64,000 bases of DNA from the NCBI GenBank assembly GCA_029258325.1, contig JARHZF010000187.1:1-64000 (forward strand). Reading direction: 5' to 3'. The notes below the pieces were generated by a model, which saw nothing but the letters and a program-made list of their open reading frames with translations, had not been told where the DNA came from and did no database searches. The DNA comes from Anaerobiospirillum sp. GTDB taxonomy: Bacteria > Pseudomonadota > Gammaproteobacteria > Enterobacterales > Succinivibrionaceae. Numbering within the stretch: the stretch's first letter is position 1; each line of letters opens with the position of its first letter. Below are positions 1,968 to 64,000 of this stretch, piece after piece. Both the position numbers and the translations under genes were made by a program.

Positions 1968-3500
1968 ATGTCAACTAAAAAACCTTTAGCTTTAATAATT
2001 ATGGATGGTTGGGGTGAAAATAAAGAAACTCAATTTAACGCAGTTTCTAATGCAAAAACCCCTGTTTTAGATGATCTTTGCAAACGTTTTGCAAATACAA
2101 CTATTGAAGCATCTGGCATAGATGTAGGTTTACCTGATGGTCAAATGGGTAACTCTGAGGTAGGCCACACTAATATAGGTGCAGGTCGTATTGTTTACCA
2201 AGAACTAACTCGTATTACAAAAGCTATAAAAGACGGCGATTTCTTTGAGAATGAGACTTTATGTAAAGCTGTTGATTTAGCAAAAAATAATGATAAAGCT
2301 GTTCACATCATGGGTCTAATGTCACCAGGTGGTGTTCATAGTCATGAAGATCATATTATTGCTATGATTGAACTTGCAGCAAAACGTGGTGCTAAAAAGA
2401 TTTACTTCCACGCTTTCTGTGATGGTCGTGACGTTCCACCAAGATCAGCTAAAGCCTATATTGCAAAAGTTGAAGAAACATTTAAGAAATTAGGTGTTGG
2501 TCGTTTTGCAACTATGGTTGGTCGTTACTATGTAATGGATCGTGACAATAGATGGGATAGAGTTGAACTTGCTTATGATGTATTAACACAAGGCATTAGT
2601 GAATTTCCAAGCTTTAACAGTGCAACAGAAGCATTAGAAGCTGCTTATGCTCGTGATGAAAATGATGAGTTCGTAAAACCATCTGTTATTGGCGAAAAAG
2701 TTAAAATGGAAGATGGCGATAGCTTAATTTTCATGAACTTTAGAGCAGATAGAGCACGTCAAATTACACGTACTTTTGTAAATAAAGATTTTGATAGTTT
2801 CCAAAGAAAATATGTTCCAAATCTAGCTTCATTTGTAATGTTAACTCAATATGCAGCTGATATTAAGACAGATTGTGCATATCCACCTGAGGATCTAACT
2901 AATACTCTAGGTGAGTGGTTATCAAGCCATCATAAGACACAATTACGTATTTCAGAAACAGAAAAATACGCACACGTAACTTTCTTCTTCAATGGTGGTG
3001 TTGAAACTGTCTTTGATGGTGAAGATAGAATCTTAGTAAAGAGCCCTAATGTTGCTACTTATGACTTACAACCTGAAATGAGTTCTGAGGAACTTACAGA
3101 TAAACTATGTGCTGCTATTGAATCAGGTAAGTATGATGTAATTATCTGTAATTATCCAAATGGCGATATGGTAGGTCATACAGGTATGTATGAAGCTGCT
3201 ATTAAAGCAGTTGAAGCTGTTGACTCATGCCTAGGTCGTGTTGTTGCATCTTTAGAGAAAGTTGGTGGTGAATGCTTAATCACAGCAGACCACGGTAACT
3301 GTGAAAGAATGAAAGATTTAGAGACTAACGAGCCTTATACAGCTCACACAAACCTACCAGTTCCATTTATTTATGTAGGTCGTGAAGCTACTATGAGAGA
3401 AGGTGGTCGCTTATCTGATATTGCTCCTACTATGTTATATCTAATGGGTATGGATATCCCATCTGAAATGACTGGTAAGTCAATTATTACTCTTAAGTAA
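1968..3500 (+). CDS. gpmI: 2,3-bisphosphoglycerate-independent phosphoglycerate mutase
   Basis: It interconverts 3- and 2-phosphoglycerate in the cytoplasm, in lower glycolysis and gluconeogenesis, using two manganese ions. The 510 residues match the family length. The alkaline-phosphatase-like metal site begins with MDGWG (Asp13), and the catalytic serine is Ser63 in [24 protein letters not shown] near residue 445 supplies further metal ligands. The gene stands alone, with its own -10 box and a clear terminator. The cofactor-dependent enzyme (gpmA) is not in the window, so this may or may not be the only mutase. Confidence 0.97.
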
Positions 3501-54056: not shown

Positions 54057-54261
54057 TTGTAAACCATAAAAAGATCTTATTAAAAAAGTAAAAGAACATT
54101 TTGATTGAGTCTTAATACTAAATTTATCCCTCTATTTTATGACAAATCTAAAAAAGTTCATATATGACAAAGGCAATTATTTTTCTTAAAAGAGAAGAGC
54201 TGTTTTTGAAAAGTAATAAAGTAAAAAAAAAGAAAATAAATAAATATATATATATAAATTG

Positions 54262-54474
54262 TTATTATTATTAGGAAGCGTTTTTTTGTTGGAAACTCAA
54301 TAAATCATTGATTTTAAAAGAAAACAGCCGTGGGAAACTCTGTGGGATCTTTGTGGGAAGATTGTGGGATAATGTGGGAAACTCAACTTTATAAAAAAAT
54401 CTGTGGGAAAACTATATAGTTTCCCACACACTTCCCACAGCTTTCCCACACGTTTCCCACAATTTATTTTTTAT
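54262..54474. repeat. Origin module A (expanded copy)
   Basis: TTATTATTATTAG (54262-54274) lies 12 bp before box 1 (54287, TGTTGGAAA). Forward boxes follow at 54329, 54341, 54352, 54363, 54373 and 54402. Inverted boxes lie at 54420, 54431, 54442 and 54453, exactly 11 bp apart. Between the two groups GTGGGAAAACTATATAG runs into TTTCCCAC as a near-perfect palindrome. Confidence 0.9.
54301..54313 (-). promoter_or_regulatory. IHF consensus site in module A
   Basis: The minus strand reads AATCAATGATTTA, a full match to WATCAANNNNTTR, 14 bp after the start of box 1. Confidence 0.65.
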
Positions 54475-54804
54475 AAATATCCTTGCTTAATTTTATTAAA
54501 CTTTTATTTTTTTTTATAGCTTTTTATTTCTTTAGTTTCCCACAGCCTATGAATTTTTTCTTTAGCGTATCTAAATTTATAAGAATAAAGTCTTTTTTTA
54601 TCTGTTTTGTGGGTAAATATATAACATTTTAAAATATCTATTTTATAATTTTTAGTTTATACAAATATCTTATTGTTTTTAAAGTGAAATATTTTTAAAT
54701 AAAATTATTTTTATTTATATTTTTACACATACGGATCGTGAGTTTCCCACATCAAGTCCCCCTTTTTGTATTTTTTTATAAAAATTGCATTTTTTTTTAA
54801 AATA

Positions 54805-54951
54805 TGTGGGAAACTTAATAAACTATTGATTTTAAAAGAAATGACCTGTGGGAAAGTCTGTGGGTTATTTGTGGAAAAGCTGTGGGTATTTAAAAAAAAA
54901 TTTTTTATGATTTTAATTTCCCACAAGTTTCCAACAATTTTTTGTGGGAAA
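54805..54951. repeat. Origin module B
   Basis: Forward boxes lie at 54805, 54847, 54859, 54870 and 54881, inverted boxes at 54917 and 54928 (the latter degenerate), and a forward box at 54943. The offsets from box 1 (+42, +54, +65, +76, +112, +123, +138) equal those of module C to within one base. Confidence 0.9.
54819..54831 (-). promoter_or_regulatory. IHF consensus site in module B
   Basis: The minus strand reads AATCAATAGTTTA, a full match to WATCAANNNNTTR, again 14 bp after the start of box 1. Confidence 0.65.
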
Positions 54952-55235
54952 CTTTAAAAAAACAAAATACATAAATTTTTTAAACATACCTCTTTCCCAC
55001 AATTTTAAGATCTTGTTTGTAATTCTAATTTTCCCACTGTTCTCTAATTTGCATTTTTTGCGTCTATTTGGGGGTAATTTTTAATTTGAGTACTTTTATA
55101 CACTTTTTATTAAAGCATATCTCTTCTTGTTTTATTTTGCATTCTTTTTTTAAGTGGCTATCTTTTTCTAGTTTTTATAGTTTTTATTATATTTTTCAAA
55201 AAGTTTGATTTTTCCACAGCCTATAACAATAATAA

Positions 55236-55405
55236 TTATTATTAGTAATTAAAAAATAGTGGGAAACTAAATAACATATTGATATTAAAAGAAAAGAGCT
55301 GTGGGAAACTCTGTGGGATCTTTGTGGGTTATCTGTGGGAAAATAGTTTTCCCAAAATTTACTAACACTTTTCCCACAGACTTTCCCACAGGCTTTTGTG
55401 GGAAA
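55236..55405. repeat. Origin module C
   Basis: TTATTATTAG (55236-55245) lies 12 bp before box 1 (55258). Forward boxes follow at 55300, 55312, 55323 and 55334, inverted boxes at 55370 and 55382, and a forward box at 55397. Offsets are +42, +54, +65, +76, +112, +124 and +139. Confidence 0.9.
55272..55284 (-). promoter_or_regulatory. IHF consensus site in module C
   Basis: The minus strand reads TATCAATATGTTA, a full match to WATCAANNNNTTR at the same 14-bp offset, although the four variable bases differ from those of A and B. Confidence 0.65.
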
Positions 55406-55583
55406 AACAAAATAAAAAAAATTATATTAAAAGTTTTATAAAAACTAGATCTCATATAGTGAAAAATTTCATTTAAATTTTCTTTATTTTTTACTTTTTT
55501 GATGATTTTTCTATAGATCTTTGTGGGAAGTTTGTATGTTTTTATAAAACTTTTTGTGGGAAACTCATATTTTTTGTGGGAAA

Positions 55584-56103
55584 TTATTTAAAATATTTTA
55601 TTTTTTTGTAAAAATTTTTAATAAAAAAATTTATTTTTATAAAAAAAATTGATCCCTTATTTTACATCTTTTAAAAATAATAATTATACTAAGATCTGCT
55701 TATTTGCTAAATTTATGTGTTTAACTTATAAAGTAATCCTTAATAAAAATTATTTTTTTATAGATCAATGTAATCTTTCTCTAGATTAAATATCTTTTTT
55801 AGATGTTATATTAATGTTCTTTCTTTCTATACAAAAGGTCATTTTGCTTTTTGTTTTATGTAAAAAATACTATTTTTCTATCTTATATAGTCAATATATT
55901 TGAAAAATAAAGAGAAATATATTTTTTTAGCTTTATTTATAAGAAATTTAAGCTTAGTCTATGTCTTTTAAAATCATGTAACTTGGCATAATATATTTAT
56001 TTTTATAGCTTTTATTTGTTTTTTTTAAAAGTATAGTTGCTCTCTTATTTTCTTTTTTATTCTATGTTTTTTTTAATATGTGACTATGATTTTTTAGATA
56101 TAA
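55584..56103. other. Very AT-rich gene-free flank of the origin region
   Basis: About 520 bp of A/T-dominated sequence separates the last 9-mer box from the efp terminator. It holds no ORF, no clear hairpin and no further boxes. Three GATC sites (55651, 55693, 55763) occur. It could serve as an unwinding region, but nothing specific supports that. Confidence 0.4.
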
Positions 56104-56129
56104 AAAAAGCCTGTTTGCACAGGCTTTTT
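56104..56129. terminator. Terminator after efp
   Basis: A perfect 11-bp stem AAAAAGCCTGT/ACAGGCTTTTT with loop TTGC has a T run on the minus strand after efp and a shorter one on the plus strand. Confidence 0.93.
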
Positions 56130-56148
56130 ATTTAAGATAAAAATCTTA

Positions 56149-56938: not shown

Positions 56939-58030
56939 CTATTTAGATACATCTTTACAAAATTCTATTAATTTATTTGTTTGTGATCCTAAATTTTGTA
57001 AATGTAAAGACCAAAGTTTTGCAATTATTTGCATATTCTTTTCTTCTTCATCTATATCTACATTTAAAAGGTAATCACCATTACCATTATAAGAATTTAA
57101 TAATTTTATAAAATTATCAATATTTGCCTTATCTTTTACTACATCCTTTATTCTAGATAGCATGGCATTTAATTTTATAATATGTGTATCTTCATCTTGC
57201 ATATAAATTTGCCATAAAAATGGTTTACCACAAAGCATAGCACGAACTATAGAATCCTCTCCTCTAACTAGATTTATATCAGAGTTTAAAAGCACATCAT
57301 CATAGGAGATAATATCTGTCATAGCTACAGCTTTTATAGTTAAATTATCTATGTTATGTGTTTCATTTACCTTTAAATTTAAGTGCAATTTATTATTTAA
57401 GTTATCTAAAGACTTACCTTCAAATACTTGCATTAAAGTACGTTTTTTAGATTTACTAAAAGCATGAACTAGATGCTCTATTCTGTCATTTTCATAACTA
57501 AATACGCTAACTTTACGTTCATACTTATCTTTATCTAAAACATCTAAATTTAAATTGTATTTATTGTCATAATAAGATTTTATTTTCTCTTTAAATGCTT
57601 TTTCTATAACAACAGATCCTGTTTTATCTGTAACACCAGGAAAGAAAAAATAAGCATTTAAATTATTAATAAAAGATGGTCTTAAATGACAACTTTCGAC
57701 AAAATCTTCAGCACTTAAATATTCTAAATTTATAACTGTTGATTTCTTTGCTTTAATTTCATCTAAAAGATTATCTGATACATGACATGAAAAAGCTAAT
57801 ATAACAATATCTGAAGCCTTGTATTGTAAATGCTTATCCCATTTTAAAATATTTAATTTATTATTATCTTTTAATAAATTTTTTGGTTTTATCTTTTCAT
57901 ATGTTTCAAGAGAGTCACAATAAAGAGATACTTTATGACCTAAAGAGCTAAGATCCATACTTAGCCTTAAACAAACTCCTAAATCTCCAAAATTATCGAT
58001 AACATTACAAAAAACATCAAAAGATAGCAT
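56939..58030 (-). CDS. earP: EF-P arginine rhamnosyltransferase EarP
   Basis: EarP transfers rhamnose from dTDP-rhamnose to Arg32 of EF-P. The start MLSFDVFCNVIDNFGDLGVCLR has the two family Asp residues (Asp12 and Asp16, equivalent to Asp13 and Asp17 of Pseudomonas putida). INLVRGEDSIVRAMLCGKPFLWQIYMQ holds the essential Glu (Glu258). It has 363 residues. It precedes efp, and the Arg32 in that EF-P independently supports the call. The dTDP-rhamnose synthesis genes are not in the window. Confidence 0.95.
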   Translation of the reverse strand: MLSFDVFCNVIDNFGDLGVCLRLSMDLSSLGHKVSLYCDSLETYEKIKPKNLLKDNNKLNILKWDKHLQYKASDIVILAFSCHVSDNLLDEIKAKKSTVINLEYLSAEDFVESCHLRPSFINNLNAYFFFPGVTDKTGSVVIEKAFKEKIKSYYDNKYNLNLDVLDKDKYERKVSVFSYENDRIEHLVHAFSKSKKRTLMQVFEGKSLDNLNNKLHLNLKVNETHNIDNLTIKAVAMTDIISYDDVLLNSDINLVRGEDSIVRAMLCGKPFLWQIYMQDEDTHIIKLNAMLSRIKDVVKDKANIDNFIKLLNSYNGNGDYLLNVDIDEEEKNMQIIAKLWSLHLQNLGSQTNKLIEFCKDVSK

Positions 58031-58113
58031 AATTTTTATCCTATTTTGCAGTTTGAAAAATAAAAAAATATTTTCTTTAAAATCAATTAAATATTTTATA
58101 TTTTAAAACATCT

Positions 58114-58142
58114 TGACAAAAGACAATACCATATTTATAAAT
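58114..58142 (+). promoter_or_regulatory. Perfect consensus sigma-70 promoter upstream of nrdD
   Basis: TTGACA (58114-58119), a 17-bp spacer and TATAAT (58137-58142) match the consensus at all twelve positions. Transcription would begin near 58149, giving a leader of about 200 bases before nrdD. Confidence 0.85.
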
Positions 58143-58148
58143 AAAAAA

Positions 58149-58323
58149 AGAGAAAATCACAAGCTGTTGTTTAATAAAATTATACGTGATAAATGATAAA
58201 TTTTTGTATAAAATAGCCTTTACTTTTTTACTATATATATTAGTAAATAGTAAAAAAGAGAGAACACTAATTATTAAATTATATTATTTTTAAAACCGTA
58301 TTAAGATTTCTTGTACGGTTTTT
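58149..58323 (+). ncRNA. Structured nrdD leader or attenuated RNA
   Basis: The predicted leader contains a perfect 12-bp hairpin, CTTTTTTACTAT/ATAGTAAAAAAG (58223-58258). It ends with a terminator-like hairpin 30 bases before the nrdD ATG. If termination occurs there, a small RNA of about 175 bases results; if it is overcome, nrdD is read. No known riboswitch class was recognised. A seven-codon ORF (58194-58217) lies within, without an evident ribosome site. Confidence 0.5.
58292..58323 (+). terminator. Terminator-like hairpin in the nrdD leader
   Basis: A 9-bp stem AAAACCGTA/TACGGTTTT with a 13-base loop has a run of five Ts that overlaps the end of the stem. It lies before, not after, the gene, so it would act as an attenuator. 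Confidence 0.65.
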
Positions 58324-58352
58324 ACTTAAGTAGATATAGGTGCTTGCTTAAC

Positions 58353-60620
58353 ATGATTCAGTACATAATAAAAAGAGATGGTCGTAAAGTTACCTTTAAC
58401 CCAAAGAAAATATCTAATGCAATCTCAAAGGCGATGATTTCATTACATCCTGATGTTGAATTAAATGAGCAAGAACTTGAGCAAATTATTTTATTAACAG
58501 ATGATGTTGTTACTAATCTTGAAAAAGATATAGAAGCTAATATAGATCCAACTGTTGAACACACTCAAGATATTATTGAAAGAGTGTTAATCAAAAATGA
58601 TTTAGCAGATTGTGCTAAAGAATACATCTTATATAGAAAACAAAGAACAGATGTAAGAACATATAATGCTGAACTAACTAAGATTTATAGAGATTTAACC
58701 TCTAAATCTACAGCTGATATGGACTTAAAAAGAGAAAATGCAAATATCGATGCAAACGCTCCTATGGGTCTTATGTTACGTTTTGGTTCTGAAGGTTCTA
58801 AGGATTTTGTTAAAAAGTATGTCCTAAAACCAGAACACTCTTTAGCTCATACTAATGGCATCATACATATTCATGATCTGGATTTTTATTTATTAACTAT
58901 TAATTGTTGTCAAATAGGTCTAAAAGACCTATTTAAAAGAGGCTTTTCAACAGGTCATGGATTCTTACGTGATCCTCAATCAATTTTATCTGCCTCAGCT
59001 TTATGTTGTATAGCTATACAGTCAAATCAAAATGATATGCATGGTGGTCAATCTATACCTATGTTTGAATATGATTTGGCTCCTTATGTAGTAAAATCAT
59101 ATGCAAAACATTTATCAAGTACAATTAAACTAGTATTAAGACTATCTGATTTTGATAGAAATCCTATTCTTTTAAAGGTTAGTGATTTATATGAAAAAGA
59201 AGGTTCTGTTTTAACTGATGAAAGTCAAAAAACTTTAAGAAATTTCATATACTTACATCTTGAAGACTTGCTAAAAGAGGCAGTTTTAGATGACACTATT
59301 GAATATATTTTAAAAGAAGCTATAAATTTAACAGAGCGTGAAACATATCAAGCAATGGAAGCATTGATTCATAATTTAAATTCAATGCAATCAAGAGCAG
59401 GTGCTCAAGTTCCATTCTCTTCAATTAATTATGGTACAGGTACAACACCTGAACAACGCATGATTATGAAGAATATGTTATTAGTAACTGACGCAGGTTT
59501 GGGTCTTGGTGAAACACCTATTTTCCCTGTACAAATCTTTAAGGTAAAAGATGGTGTTAATACTAAAGAGGGAGATCCTAATTATGATTTATTCAAATTA
59601 GCATGTAAGGTGTCAGCTAAACGCTTATTCCCTAATTTCTCTTTCTTAGATGCACCTTATAATAAACAATACTATGTTGAAGGTCATCCTGAAACTGAAG
59701 TGGCTTTAATGGGATGTCGTACTAGAGTTTTTGGTAACGATTACGATAAAACTAAACAAATAATTCCAGGTCGCGGTAATCTATCTTTTACTACTGTAAA
59801 CCTACCAAGACTTGCTATTAATTCACATGGTTCATTAACTAAATTCTACCAAGATTTAGATAGAGTTATTGGTATGGTTTTTGAACAATTAGTAGATAGA
59901 TTCAAAATAATAGCAGATAAGCATGTTTATAATTATCCATTCCTAATGGGGCAAGGTGTTTGGATTGATTCTGAAAAACTTTGTATGGATGATAAGATAA
60001 GTGAAGTTATAAAACATGGTTCCTTATCTGTTGGTTTTATAGGTCTTGCTGAAGCTTTAGTGGCTTTATGTGGTGAACATCATGGTCAAAGTCAAAATGC
60101 TTTAGATTTAGGTCTTGAAATTATTCAACACATGCGTGATTTAGCAGATGAACAAACTAAGAAAGTAGGATTAAATTTCTCGCTATTTTCAACCCCTGCT
60201 GAAGGTTTATCTGGTAGATTCGTTAATATAGATAAAAAGATCTTTGGTGAAATTCCTGGTGTGACCGATAAAGAATACTATACAAATAGTTTCCATATAC
60301 CAGTTAATTTCCCTATATCTGCAGCAAAGAAGATCGAAATAGAGGGTAAATTCCACTCTTTATGTAACGCAGGTTCCATTACATATGTAGAGCTAGATGG
60401 TGATTTAACAAAGAATACCCAAGCTTTTGAAGATATTATTCTTTATATGAAAGATTGTGGTATAGGTTATGGTTCTATTAACCATCCTGTTGATAGATGT
60501 CCTGTTTGTGGCTATGTTGGTATTATTAACGATGTATGCCCTAAATGTGGACGTAAGGATGGCGAGGGAGTAAGTATTGAACGCTTAAGTAAAATTGGCG
60601 TTGAATGTATTTGTAAATAA
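58353..60620 (+). CDS. nrdD: Class III (anaerobic) ribonucleoside-triphosphate reductase lacking its glycyl-radical motif
   Basis: NrdD reduces ribonucleotides to deoxyribonucleotides without oxygen. I place the start at 58353 (755 residues, MIQYIIKRDGRKVTF, an ATP-cone start). The catalytic barrel has CCQIGLKDLFKRGFSTGHGFLRD, SNQNDMHGGQSIPMF and AGAQVPFSSINYGTGTTPE. The C-terminus has a zinc ribbon (RCPVCGY...CPKCGRKDGEGV) but stops at ERLSKIGVECICK. The RxxGY glycyl-radical segment expected there is missing and is encoded in the next small gene. nrdG follows. Confidence 0.95.
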   Translation: MIQYIIKRDGRKVTFNPKKISNAISKAMISLHPDVELNEQELEQIILLTDDVVTNLEKDIEANIDPTVEHTQDIIERVLIKNDLADCAKEYILYRKQRTDVRTYNAELTKIYRDLTSKSTADMDLKRENANIDANAPMGLMLRFGSEGSKDFVKKYVLKPEHSLAHTNGIIHIHDLDFYLLTINCCQIGLKDLFKRGFSTGHGFLRDPQSILSASALCCIAIQSNQNDMHGGQSIPMFEYDLAPYVVKSYAKHLSSTIKLVLRLSDFDRNPILLKVSDLYEKEGSVLTDESQKTLRNFIYLHLEDLLKEAVLDDTIEYILKEAINLTERETYQAMEALIHNLNSMQSRAGAQVPFSSINYGTGTTPEQRMIMKNMLLVTDAGLGLGETPIFPVQIFKVKDGVNTKEGDPNYDLFKLACKVSAKRLFPNFSFLDAPYNKQYYVEGHPETEVALMGCRTRVFGNDYDKTKQIIPGRGNLSFTTVNLPRLAINSHGSLTKFYQDLDRVIGMVFEQLVDRFKIIADKHVYNYPFLMGQGVWIDSEKLCMDDKISEVIKHGSLSVGFIGLAEALVALCGEHHGQSQNALDLGLEIIQHMRDLADEQTKKVGLNFSLFSTPAEGLSGRFVNIDKKIFGEIPGVTDKEYYTNSFHIPVNFPISAAKKIEIEGKFHSLCNAGSITYVELDGDLTKNTQAFEDIILYMKDCGIGYGSINHPVDRCPVCGYVGIINDVCPKCGRKDGEGVSIERLSKIGVECICK

Positions 60621-60821: not shown

Positions 60822-61343
60822 ATGGATTTATCTATATTAGATGAGACTTATATACGAATAGCAGGTATCGTTGATGAATCTATAGTTGACGGTCCTGGTA
60901 TTCGTTATACCATATTTACACAAGGCTGCCCTTTTCGCTGTAAGGGCTGCCATAATGTACAATCTCAATCTCTAACAGGAGGTTTAGAGGTAACATTACG
61001 TTGTTTATATGATGAAATAAAAGCAAATCCTTTAATAAAAGGTGTTACCTTTTCAGGAGGTGAACCTTTTATTCAAACAAAACCATTAACTATTCTCTCT
61101 AAAATATTAAAAGAAGAAAACTACTCTTTATGGTCATATACTGGCTATATTTATGATAAATTATTAGAAGATAAAGATCGTTTTGAACTTTTAAAATTTT
61201 TAGATGTTGTTGTTGATGGTCCTTATGTTGAAAGTAAAAGATCTTTTGATATAGATTTTAGAGGCTCAACAAATCAAAGACTAATCGATGTTCAAAGATC
61301 TTTAGATGAAAATAAAGTTGTTTTATTAGAAGGTTTTATCTAG
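60822..61343 (+). CDS. nrdG: Class III reductase activating enzyme
   Basis: NrdG is a radical-SAM enzyme that makes the glycyl radical on NrdD. The cluster motif is CPFRCKGC (Cys36, Cys40, Cys43) after GIVDESIVDGPGIRYTIFTQG. The 173 residues match the family (154 in E. coli). TFSGGEPF is the GGE motif. Here its protein substrate would be the separate small glycyl-radical protein encoded 7 bp upstream. Confidence 0.96.
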   Translation: MDLSILDETYIRIAGIVDESIVDGPGIRYTIFTQGCPFRCKGCHNVQSQSLTGGLEVTLRCLYDEIKANPLIKGVTFSGGEPFIQTKPLTILSKILKEENYSLWSYTGYIYDKLLEDKDRFELLKFLDVVVDGPYVESKRSFDIDFRGSTNQRLIDVQRSLDENKVVLLEGFI

Positions 61344-61353
61344 ATCTTACATA

Positions 61354-62580
61354 ATGGAAAAGTCTAACAATAATGATCACAAAATTGTAGTATGTAGAGC
61401 TTGTGATCATATTATTCATGTAACTAATAAAGAAGGCGTAAAATCCTCCTGTCCTATCTGTAAAGCACCTCTTAGTACTTACAATACCTCTCTACAGAAA
61501 GTTGCTATTGTTGCTATTGCTGCCCTTATTTTAATATTGCCAAGCTTATTAGAACCATTTTTATCTGTTAGTGTTTTTGGTATTAAAAAAGATGTTGCTT
61601 TAATTTCTATTTTTTCTATTTTAAAAACAGATTGGTCTATTCTTTTATACGTTTTTTCTTTTTTTGCAATTGTATTGCCTATAGTTATGCTCTACATTAT
61701 TGTACTTGTAGGCTATTTCAATATAAAGGTTACTAAATTTCTTTGCAATTTATACTCTTTCTCCCACTTCTTTTGCATGGTAGATGTATTTGTTTTAGCA
61801 ATATTAGTAAGTCTTATTAAGATAACATCTTTAGCAAAAGTTGAATATCATATAGGCTTTATTTTAAATTTCATCTTTGCTATTTTGCTTATTTATTGTT
61901 ACTCAAGATGTAGACCAAGACGACTTTGGGATATGCTTAAAGCTTCTAATTTAGATGAAAGTCTTATAGGTCATAGAGCTTTAGATAAAAATGTATTTTT
62001 ATGTAATCACTGCTTCTTTGCCTTTAAAGGTGAAAAAGAAATAGAAACTTGCCCTCGCTGTGGTAAAAAGTTAAAAAAAAGAAGCAAACATATATTACAA
62101 AGAGTTTTATCTTTGTTATTTGCAGCTATTATCTTATACTTGCCATCTAATATGTATCCTATTATGTTTACAGAGTATATTGGTAAAAATATGGGATCAA
62201 ACATTATAGATGGTGTAATTGCTCTTTGGAATTTGAATTCAAAATTTGTGGCTATAGTTATCTTAACAGCCTCAATCTTTATTCCAATTTTTAAGATCTT
62301 AGCTATTTCATATTTAATCTATAGTGTTAAATTTACTAATTTAAAAAGACCACATAATTTATCTTTTTTATATAGATTAGTAGCATTTATAGGTAAATGG
62401 TCAATGATAGATGTTTTTGTAGTAGTAATCATGACCTCTGTTGTTAGATTTACAGGTTTAATTGTTATTAATCCAGGTTTTGCCATTATTTCTTTTTGCT
62501 CTGTTGTTATTATTACAATGTTTGCAGCAGAAGAGTTTGATGAGAGATTAATTTGGGATAGGTATTATGAGCGAAAATGA
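61354..62580 (+). CDS. pqiA: Paraquat-inducible membrane protein PqiA
   Basis: PqiA is an inner-membrane partner of the PqiB MCE tunnel, proposed to move lipids between membranes. Two zinc-ribbon-like modules (CRACDH...CPIC and CNHCFF...CPRCGKK) each precede a four-helix membrane unit. The 408 residues match E. coli PqiA (417). It follows nrdG by 10 bp and overlaps pqiB by 14 bp, so it is likely in the nrd transcript. Confidence 0.95.
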   Translation: MEKSNNNDHKIVVCRACDHIIHVTNKEGVKSSCPICKAPLSTYNTSLQKVAIVAIAALILILPSLLEPFLSVSVFGIKKDVALISIFSILKTDWSILLYVFSFFAIVLPIVMLYIIVLVGYFNIKVTKFLCNLYSFSHFFCMVDVFVLAILVSLIKITSLAKVEYHIGFILNFIFAILLIYCYSRCRPRRLWDMLKASNLDESLIGHRALDKNVFLCNHCFFAFKGEKEIETCPRCGKKLKKRSKHILQRVLSLLFAAIILYLPSNMYPIMFTEYIGKNMGSNIIDGVIALWNLNSKFVAIVILTASIFIPIFKILAISYLIYSVKFTNLKRPHNLSFLYRLVAFIGKWSMIDVFVVVIMTSVVRFTGLIVINPGFAIISFCSVVIITMFAAEEFDERLIWDRYYERK

Positions 62581-64000
62581 TAAAAAAGAAGATAATGCAA
62601 AAAGTAAAACATTAGATAATGCAAAGGCTATTGAATCTAAATTAAGAAGTATAGGTTTTATTTGGCTTATACCTTTAATTGCTCTTTTAATTACAGGTAT
62701 TTTAATTTGGGATAATACTATAAATAAAGGTCCTACTATTGAACTACATATTTCAAAGGCAGATGGTCTTGTTGAAGGTACTACCCTTGTTAAAACACGC
62801 TCTGTTCCTGTAGGTCGTGTAGAGGGTATATCCTTATCTAAAGATTATAAAGAAGCTATTGTTAAAGTTCAGATGTATCCAAATACAGATGATCTTATAA
62901 AAAAAGACTCACAATTTTGGATTGTTAAACCAAGAGTTGAAAATACAGGTATTTCAGGATTAGATACATTACTCTCTGGTGCATATATTGAGATGAGACG
63001 AGGGGTATCTGAAGATGAGGATACTTCATTTGAACTTTTAGAAGAACCACCTCTAAATACTGATAATAATGAAGGTATGTTTATAGAACTAGCATCAGAT
63101 GCTAGAAAGAAATTAAATAAAGGTGATGTAGTTTTATATAAAGGAGTTATGGTAGGTTCTGTAACTTCATCAACTCTTGATTTTCTAAATAGATCAATGA
63201 GCTATCAAATTTTTATTAAATATCCATATACAAAACTATTAAACTCAAATACAAAATTTTGGATCTCAAGTGGTATTGATATAAGTTTTGATGCAGATGG
63301 TTTTAAACTTAATACAGAGTCTTTAGATAGTATTATTAAAGGTGGTATTGCCTTTGATAATATTAGAACAGATAGAGAACTTAAGTTTGCAAATAATGAA
63401 GTTCATACCCTTTATGCTGACTATAATAAAGCTCTTCTTAGCTCCTATAGTAATGGTGTTAAGTATGTAATTATGGTTAAAGATACTATAAAAGGACTTA
63501 AAATTGGCTCTCCCGTATATTTTAAAGGTATAAAAGTAGGCGAAGTATCTCAATGTCCTTGGTATAAAAATGAGAAATATGATGTTTATTTAGATGAAGA
63601 ATATATTCCTATTATGATCTCTATTAATGTTGATTATGATAATAAGGAATCTTTAGAGGATTTTCTTGATAAGAAGATAGCCTCAAAACGTCTATGCTCA
63701 TCTATTAGCCTTGCAAATCCTCTTACTGGTGAAAATAGAATAGACCTATCTTATACAGCTGAAAAATGTTATTTATACTCTAAAAAATTTAGAGATTTAT
63801 ATGTAATTCCATCTTTAAATTCAGGCAATTTAATTGCAGAGATGCAAAGTTTAATTGCTAACTTAAATAAGATTGATACAGAAGGAATTTCTAATAATCT
63901 AAATAAATCTCTAGAGAGTTTAAATAAAGCTTTAGATACCTTAACTAATAGTGCAGAGACATTTAATAAAAAAGATGTTCTTGGTAGTTTAAAATCTACA
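62567..64000 (+). CDS. pqiB: MCE-domain intermembrane lipid transport protein PqiB (partial, runs off the window)
   Basis: PqiB forms stacked MCE rings with a C-terminal needle that spans the periplasm. The ATG at 62567 overlaps the end of pqiA. An N-terminal cytoplasmic stretch and one membrane helix (FIWLIPLIALLITGILIW) are followed by MCE units (GPTIELHISKADGLVEGTTLVKTRSV; ELASDARKKLNKGDVVLYKG; YVIMVKDTIKGLKIGSPVYFKG) and the start of a coiled coil (IAEMQSLIANLNKI). 478 codons are open to the window end with no stop. E. coli PqiB has 546 residues, so about 70 should be missing. Confidence 0.93.
   Translation, partial: MSENDKKEDNAKSKTLDNAKAIESKLRSIGFIWLIPLIALLITGILIWDNTINKGPTIELHISKADGLVEGTTLVKTRSVPVGRVEGISLSKDYKEAIVKVQMYPNTDDLIKKDSQFWIVKPRVENTGISGLDTLLSGAYIEMRRGVSEDEDTSFELLEEPPLNTDNNEGMFIELASDARKKLNKGDVVLYKGVMVGSVTSSTLDFLNRSMSYQIFIKYPYTKLLNSNTKFWISSGIDISFDADGFKLNTESLDSIIKGGIAFDNIRTDRELKFANNEVHTLYADYNKALLSSYSNGVKYVIMVKDTIKGLKIGSPVYFKGIKVGEVSQCPWYKNEKYDVYLDEEYIPIMISINVDYDNKESLEDFLDKKIASKRLCSSISLANPLTGENRIDLSYTAEKCYLYSKKFRDLYVIPSLNSGNLIAEMQSLIANLNKIDTEGISNNLNKSLESLNKALDTLTNSAETFNKKDVLGSLKST

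Follow-up and report, generated by a model that had tools for sequence, protein, structure and literature searches.

The window analysed here, a stretch of 64 kb, lies on contig 63 of a metagenome-assembled genome (MAG) that is 94.8% complete, and the relatives of its NrdD belong to the Succinivibrionaceae (Anaerobiospirillum, Succinivibrio and Succinatimonas). Towards the end of the window, nrdD stands divergently to earP and is followed by nrdG, pqiA and pqiB:

56939-58030, minus strand: earP, the divergent neighbour of nrdD (PF10093)
58353-60620, plus strand: nrdD, class III (anaerobic) ribonucleotide reductase of the clostridial type with an ATP-cone (profile and domain searches)
60822-61343, plus strand: nrdG, radical-SAM activase (TIGR02491, above cut-off)
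61354-62580, plus strand: pqiA (TIGR00155, above cut-off; synteny)
62567-64000, plus strand: pqiB (NF008070, E 1e-122, below its cut-off as the gene is truncated by the window end; MlaD domains)

The spacer between the divergent earP and nrdD is 81% A+T. Most of the relatives examined keep this neighbourhood, with a divergent earP and homologues of nrdG and pqiA, and between earP and nrdD a further plus-strand gene that a terminator there could serve was not found. The spacer contains the following predicted elements:

58113-58118, plus strand: -35 hexamer TTGACA of the predicted nrdD promoter (6 of 6 positions)
58136-58141, plus strand: -10 hexamer TATAAA (5 of 6 positions; spacer of 17)
58148-58352, plus strand: predicted nrdD 5' leader of about 205 nt (start placed from the -10; fold z -3.16)
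58186-58214, plus strand: weaker alternative promoter GTGATA-17-TAAAAT (9 of 12 positions)
58223-58258, plus strand: hairpin 1, an AT-rich dyad of 12 perfect pairs with a 12-base loop
58228-58246, no strand assigned: dyad TTACTA-N7-TAGTAA, a possible operator and not an NrdR box (one further copy in the genome)
58292-58326, plus strand: hairpin 2 with its U-tract, an intrinsic-terminator-like element of intermediate strength (fold, terminator scoring)
58338-58342, plus strand: Shine-Dalgarno AGGTG, 10 nt 5' of the ATG

The predicted promoter follows the sigma-70 pattern (TTGACA, 16-18 bases, TATAAT) at 11 of 12 positions with a spacer of 17. The original prediction had counted all twelve positions as matching, but the last T of the -10 is an A; its 17-base spacer was right, whereas its start at 58114 has to be moved one base to the left, to 58113. 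This is the only plus-strand site with at least 11 matches in the window, the minus strand holding two more, and an equally good plus-strand promoter arose in 6 of 200 dinucleotide shuffles of the earP-nrdD intergenic region. The main transcription start would lie near 58148, 7 nt past the -10. In a MAFFT alignment the weaker site at 58186-58214 coincides with the nrdD promoter of Succinivibrio relatives (its -10 being 58209-58214), and because of this an alternative start near 58221 is possible, which would make hairpin 1 the 5' end of the mRNA.

As a whole, the leader folds at -40.6 kcal/mol (z -3.16), a stability that none of 200 shuffles equalled, and both hairpins have a pairing probability of 1.00 in its free fold. 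The perfect 12-bp hairpin that had been described was borne out (arms 58223-58234 and 58247-58258), and its loop does lie inside TTACTATATATATTAGTAA (58228-58246), a stretch that also takes in the 7 innermost bases of the 5' arm. An inverted repeat equal to hairpin 1 was produced in 29 of 2000 dinucleotide shuffles, and five such repeats occur in the window. Hairpin 2 (arms 58292-58300 and 58314-58322) consists of 9 perfect pairs with AAG/CUU inside, then TACTT, and ends 30 bases 5' of the ATG at 58353, as had been described for the terminator-like stem. It shows the intrinsic-terminator pattern of a stable, GC-containing stem with an immediate U-tract, with three GC pairs, a moderate U-score of 3.8 and a dG of -9.3 when counted as far as the U-tract, which is soon interrupted (TTTACTT). 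A terminator matching it in quality arose in 7 of 400 leader shuffles, and its loop exceeds the range of a stock terminator scanner, which missed it. Its strength as a terminator is modest: the window's other terminator-like hairpins span -8 to -20 kcal/mol, and many of them, at -11 to -20, are stronger than hairpin 2. Elsewhere in the window, mnmG and efp are separated by about 2 kb (54057-56148) in which a simple gene call gives no ORF of at least 90 aa and which contains a strong minus-strand terminator-like hairpin (54401-54440, -20 kcal/mol). A near-identical pair of hairpins, TGTAGTACGGCTTGCGTA(T/C)TACA with T-rich tails, is found at 34-56 on the minus strand and 1754-1776 on the plus strand and is possibly a repeated terminator element.

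We tentatively favour a reading in which the nrdD leader acts as an attenuator-like valve through partial premature termination at hairpin 2, a proposal to which we give somewhat less than an even chance. RNA polymerase would start near 58148 at the promoter of an nrdD-nrdG(-pqiA-pqiB) operon, and hairpin 1 followed by hairpin 2 would form by default in the nascent leader. Hairpin 2 with its short U-tract would then stop some transcripts (at about 58322-58326), giving by coordinates an RNA of about 175-179 nt, while the remainder would read through into nrdD; the setting of the valve could be fixed or answer to some signal. The placing of hairpin 2 speaks for a function, because the flanking genes diverge: there is no upstream transcript to end, and the element could act only on a transcript begun inside the gap. 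In an intergenic scan, no other divergent gap in the window held a terminator-like hairpin of -8 kcal/mol or below, whereas the nrdD gap has one. A similar plus-strand terminator also recurs before nrdD in Anaerobiospirillum. Weighing against attenuation are the broken U-tract, the many stronger terminators in the window and the lack of conservation set out below.

The anatomy is compatible with control at the RNA level or a short RNA, as originally proposed, but the hairpins were not found in any relative examined, nor were the parts of a known switch. The leader yielded a single antiterminator pairing, between 58249-58256 and 58319-58326, which is less stable than the free fold by 13 kcal/mol. 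Leader ORFs of 7, 9, 29 and 35 codons exist, the latter two in one frame and the longer of these opening with GTG, and none is a leader peptide with a Shine-Dalgarno sequence. An Rfam scan of the leader gave nothing at the gathering threshold; a mir-454 match by E-value was set aside as chance (18.6 bits versus 60 required). With no useful antiterminator, leader peptide or riboswitch, a classical switch is therefore not supported; a fixed valve would require none of these.

The leader is not conserved within the family. A BLASTN search of the leader against 57 family genomes returned short chance matches only, and the best of these, in the single further genome of the genus (G001), falls inside a dctM-like gene. 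The other nrdD loci examined, that of G001 among them, yielded neither hairpin. In G001, NrdD is 76% identical and the earP-nrdD gap measures about 221 bases without a terminator, and Succinivibrio nrdD loci have no terminator at the corresponding place. The family offers no alignable leader homologue for covariation analysis. Such a pattern would suit an alternative that we regard as doubtful but serious, namely that the hairpins are non-regulatory, at most shielding the 5' end of the mRNA or being partly chance, with nrdD constitutive in an anaerobe. Taken singly, either hairpin would arise by chance in about 1.5-1.8% of regions, which is not extreme when many regions are read, and the conserved nrdD promoter of Succinivibrio lines up with the alternative -10 (58209-58214). 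Protection of the 5' end becomes more likely if transcription starts near 58221, as hairpin 1 would then stand at the very 5' end. A perfect 10-bp hairpin also stands 8 nt past the TATAAT of the genome's own nrdA. What does not fit the absence of regulation is that two separate hairpins and an 11/12 promoter are jointly improbable by chance, and that the features of hairpin 2, three GC pairs in the stem and a U-tract within a divergent gap, are specifically those of a terminator-like element. The nrdA hairpin (L166, about 3290-3330) reads ACTATTTTAT-AAATAA-ATAAAATAGT, and in another genus (L188) a 7-bp hairpin, ACTACCT...AGGTAGT, likewise comes after the nrdA TATAAT.

The recurrence in Anaerobiospirillum takes a different form. 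In species with both ends placed, the earP-nrdD gap is 0.4-1.6 kb long. A plus-strand terminator, GGCGTC-N4-6-GACGCC-TTT(G/A)TT, stands in the gap 100-700 bases before nrdD in 8 of 10 species (loci L032, L034, L004, L036, L038, L040, L015 and L008). An exact-pattern search found it in seven Anaerobiospirillum genomes, with one copy in six and two in one, so that in genomes matching the exact pattern the terminator is nearly locus-specific. Three species have in common a single-copy structured stretch, GCTGACTCAAAGC...AGTCGGCTTTTGTTT, and among the relatives' leaders searched there was no Rfam match. The Anaerobiospirillum gap is a candidate for an unannotated short RNA or an attenuated leader. 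Because its sequences are unrelated to those of the window, the correspondence between these terminators and the window's hairpins is read as analogy and not homology. A separate trans-acting small RNA of about 175-179 nt, running from the 58113 promoter to hairpin 2 and leaving nrdD to read-through, could also be imagined for the window. The unit from promoter to terminator is complete, and a terminator up to about 700 bases before nrdD, as in Anaerobiospirillum, fits a separate transcript there. We nevertheless consider such an RNA unlikely here: it has no sequence homologue in the 57 family genomes and no Rfam match, and the 30 bases from hairpin 2 to the ATG are too short for a promoter, so that nrdD would need that same start in any case.

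Hairpin 1 might also be read at the DNA level, its dyad TTACTA-N7-TAGTAA serving as the operator of a putative repressor that replaces NrdR, with the terminator-like hairpin being secondary. A possible promoter stands just upstream of the dyad, and NrdR is gone from this genome. Succinivibrio nrdD promoters (a conserved TTGAA-type -35, 17 bases and an ATAAT-type -10) hold a conserved TTATTGATTTATATAGA about 30 bases downstream, in a comparable place. The dyad, however, occurs just once more in the genome and not at all in the other genome of the genus, roughly the rate of a reversed control pattern; showing no excess over that pattern, it was rejected as a regulon motif. It is not found before nrdA, and the search for an operator common to nrdD and nrdA was negative, all of which makes this reading improbable. 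In Succinivibrio itself, TTATTGATTTATATAGA (loci L018, L020, L048-L053, L120 and L123) is a candidate operator of some regulator. The Succinivibrio element TTATTGATTTATATA was discarded as a regulon motif, the other exact copies inspected preceding unrelated genes.

NrdR has been described as a universal repressor of ribonucleotide reductase genes in bacteria (PMC12051234), and control of nrdD by paired NrdR boxes would be the conventional expectation. The palindrome does share one of its halves, ACTATATATA, with the E. coli nrdDG box, of which it likewise makes up half (an oligonucleotide in PMC12176259). Under a criterion of two 16-bp boxes spaced by 15-17 bp (or about 26 bp), though, the best pair reaches 22.8 of 33.6 (p 0.10), and no acceptable second box was found before nrdD at a spacing of 15-17 or 25-27 bp. 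For contrast, nrdD of the order-level relative L026 scores 29.4, a value that no shuffle out of 300 reached, and the scan recovers boxes before nrdD of some, not all, of the NrdR-bearing or more distant relatives (L026, L030). The gene is missing as well. In a tally drawn from 57 Succinivibrionaceae genomes, with TIGR00244-positive control genomes, the NrdR model TIGR00244 found nothing in the 36 genomes with a clostridial-type NrdD (about 70-77% identical to that of the window), the source genome included. It was positive in 14 of the 15 with an E. coli-type NrdD (about 37%), where the exception is only 74% complete; one genome with both NrdD types and NrdR (G035) was counted in the latter group. 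The earlier remark that the palindrome resembles an NrdR box without matching one was correct, NrdR being absent from all 36 genomes counted with this nrdD. As far as genome completeness allows, the missing gene and the lack of an acceptable box pair lead us to reject NrdR control, which retains next to no probability. The distribution suggests that the repressor was lost along with the replacement of nrdD by a transferred gene.

The anatomy of the nrdD leader is real but lineage-specific and of a known kind, and its function is a prediction. Literature searches on nrdD in Succinivibrionaceae found nothing. As a clade without NrdR must still match its dNTP supply to growth, it needs some other control, for which the nrdD leaders are the obvious candidates. 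Perhaps, when nrdD was swapped for the clostridial type and NrdR was lost in part of the Succinivibrionaceae, control moved to premature termination through different hairpins in each genus, possibly sensing a dNTP-related signal, but so broad a scenario must be called a long shot. The window is one unconserved example, and its worth lies in pointing to this clade-wide question; the replaced nrdD and the loss of NrdR form a stronger and more useful lead than the leader itself.

Some stem-loops at the 5' terminus stabilise mRNAs, as in the E. coli ompA leader. The nrdD 5' UTR resembles such cases in its strong, AT-rich early hairpin, and differs in that hairpin 1 would be internal unless transcription starts near 58221. 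With the E. coli nrdDG NrdR system (PMC12176259, PMC12051234) the locus has in common a site at an nrd promoter, the palindrome sharing the half-site ACTATATATA, although the source genome is without an nrdR gene and without an acceptable second box. The preferred reading, partial termination at hairpin 2, has a precedent in P. acnes (Propionibacterium/Cutibacterium), where much nrdAB transcription stops before the first gene and where cobalamin riboswitches are annotated in the leaders of both nrdAB and nrdDG (PMC3848588). Unlike those leaders, the one described here has no cobalamin or other Rfam aptamer and no antiterminator of comparable stability, and its termination is a prediction only; like them, it combines a promoter, a structured leader and possible premature termination ahead of reductase genes (PMC3848588).
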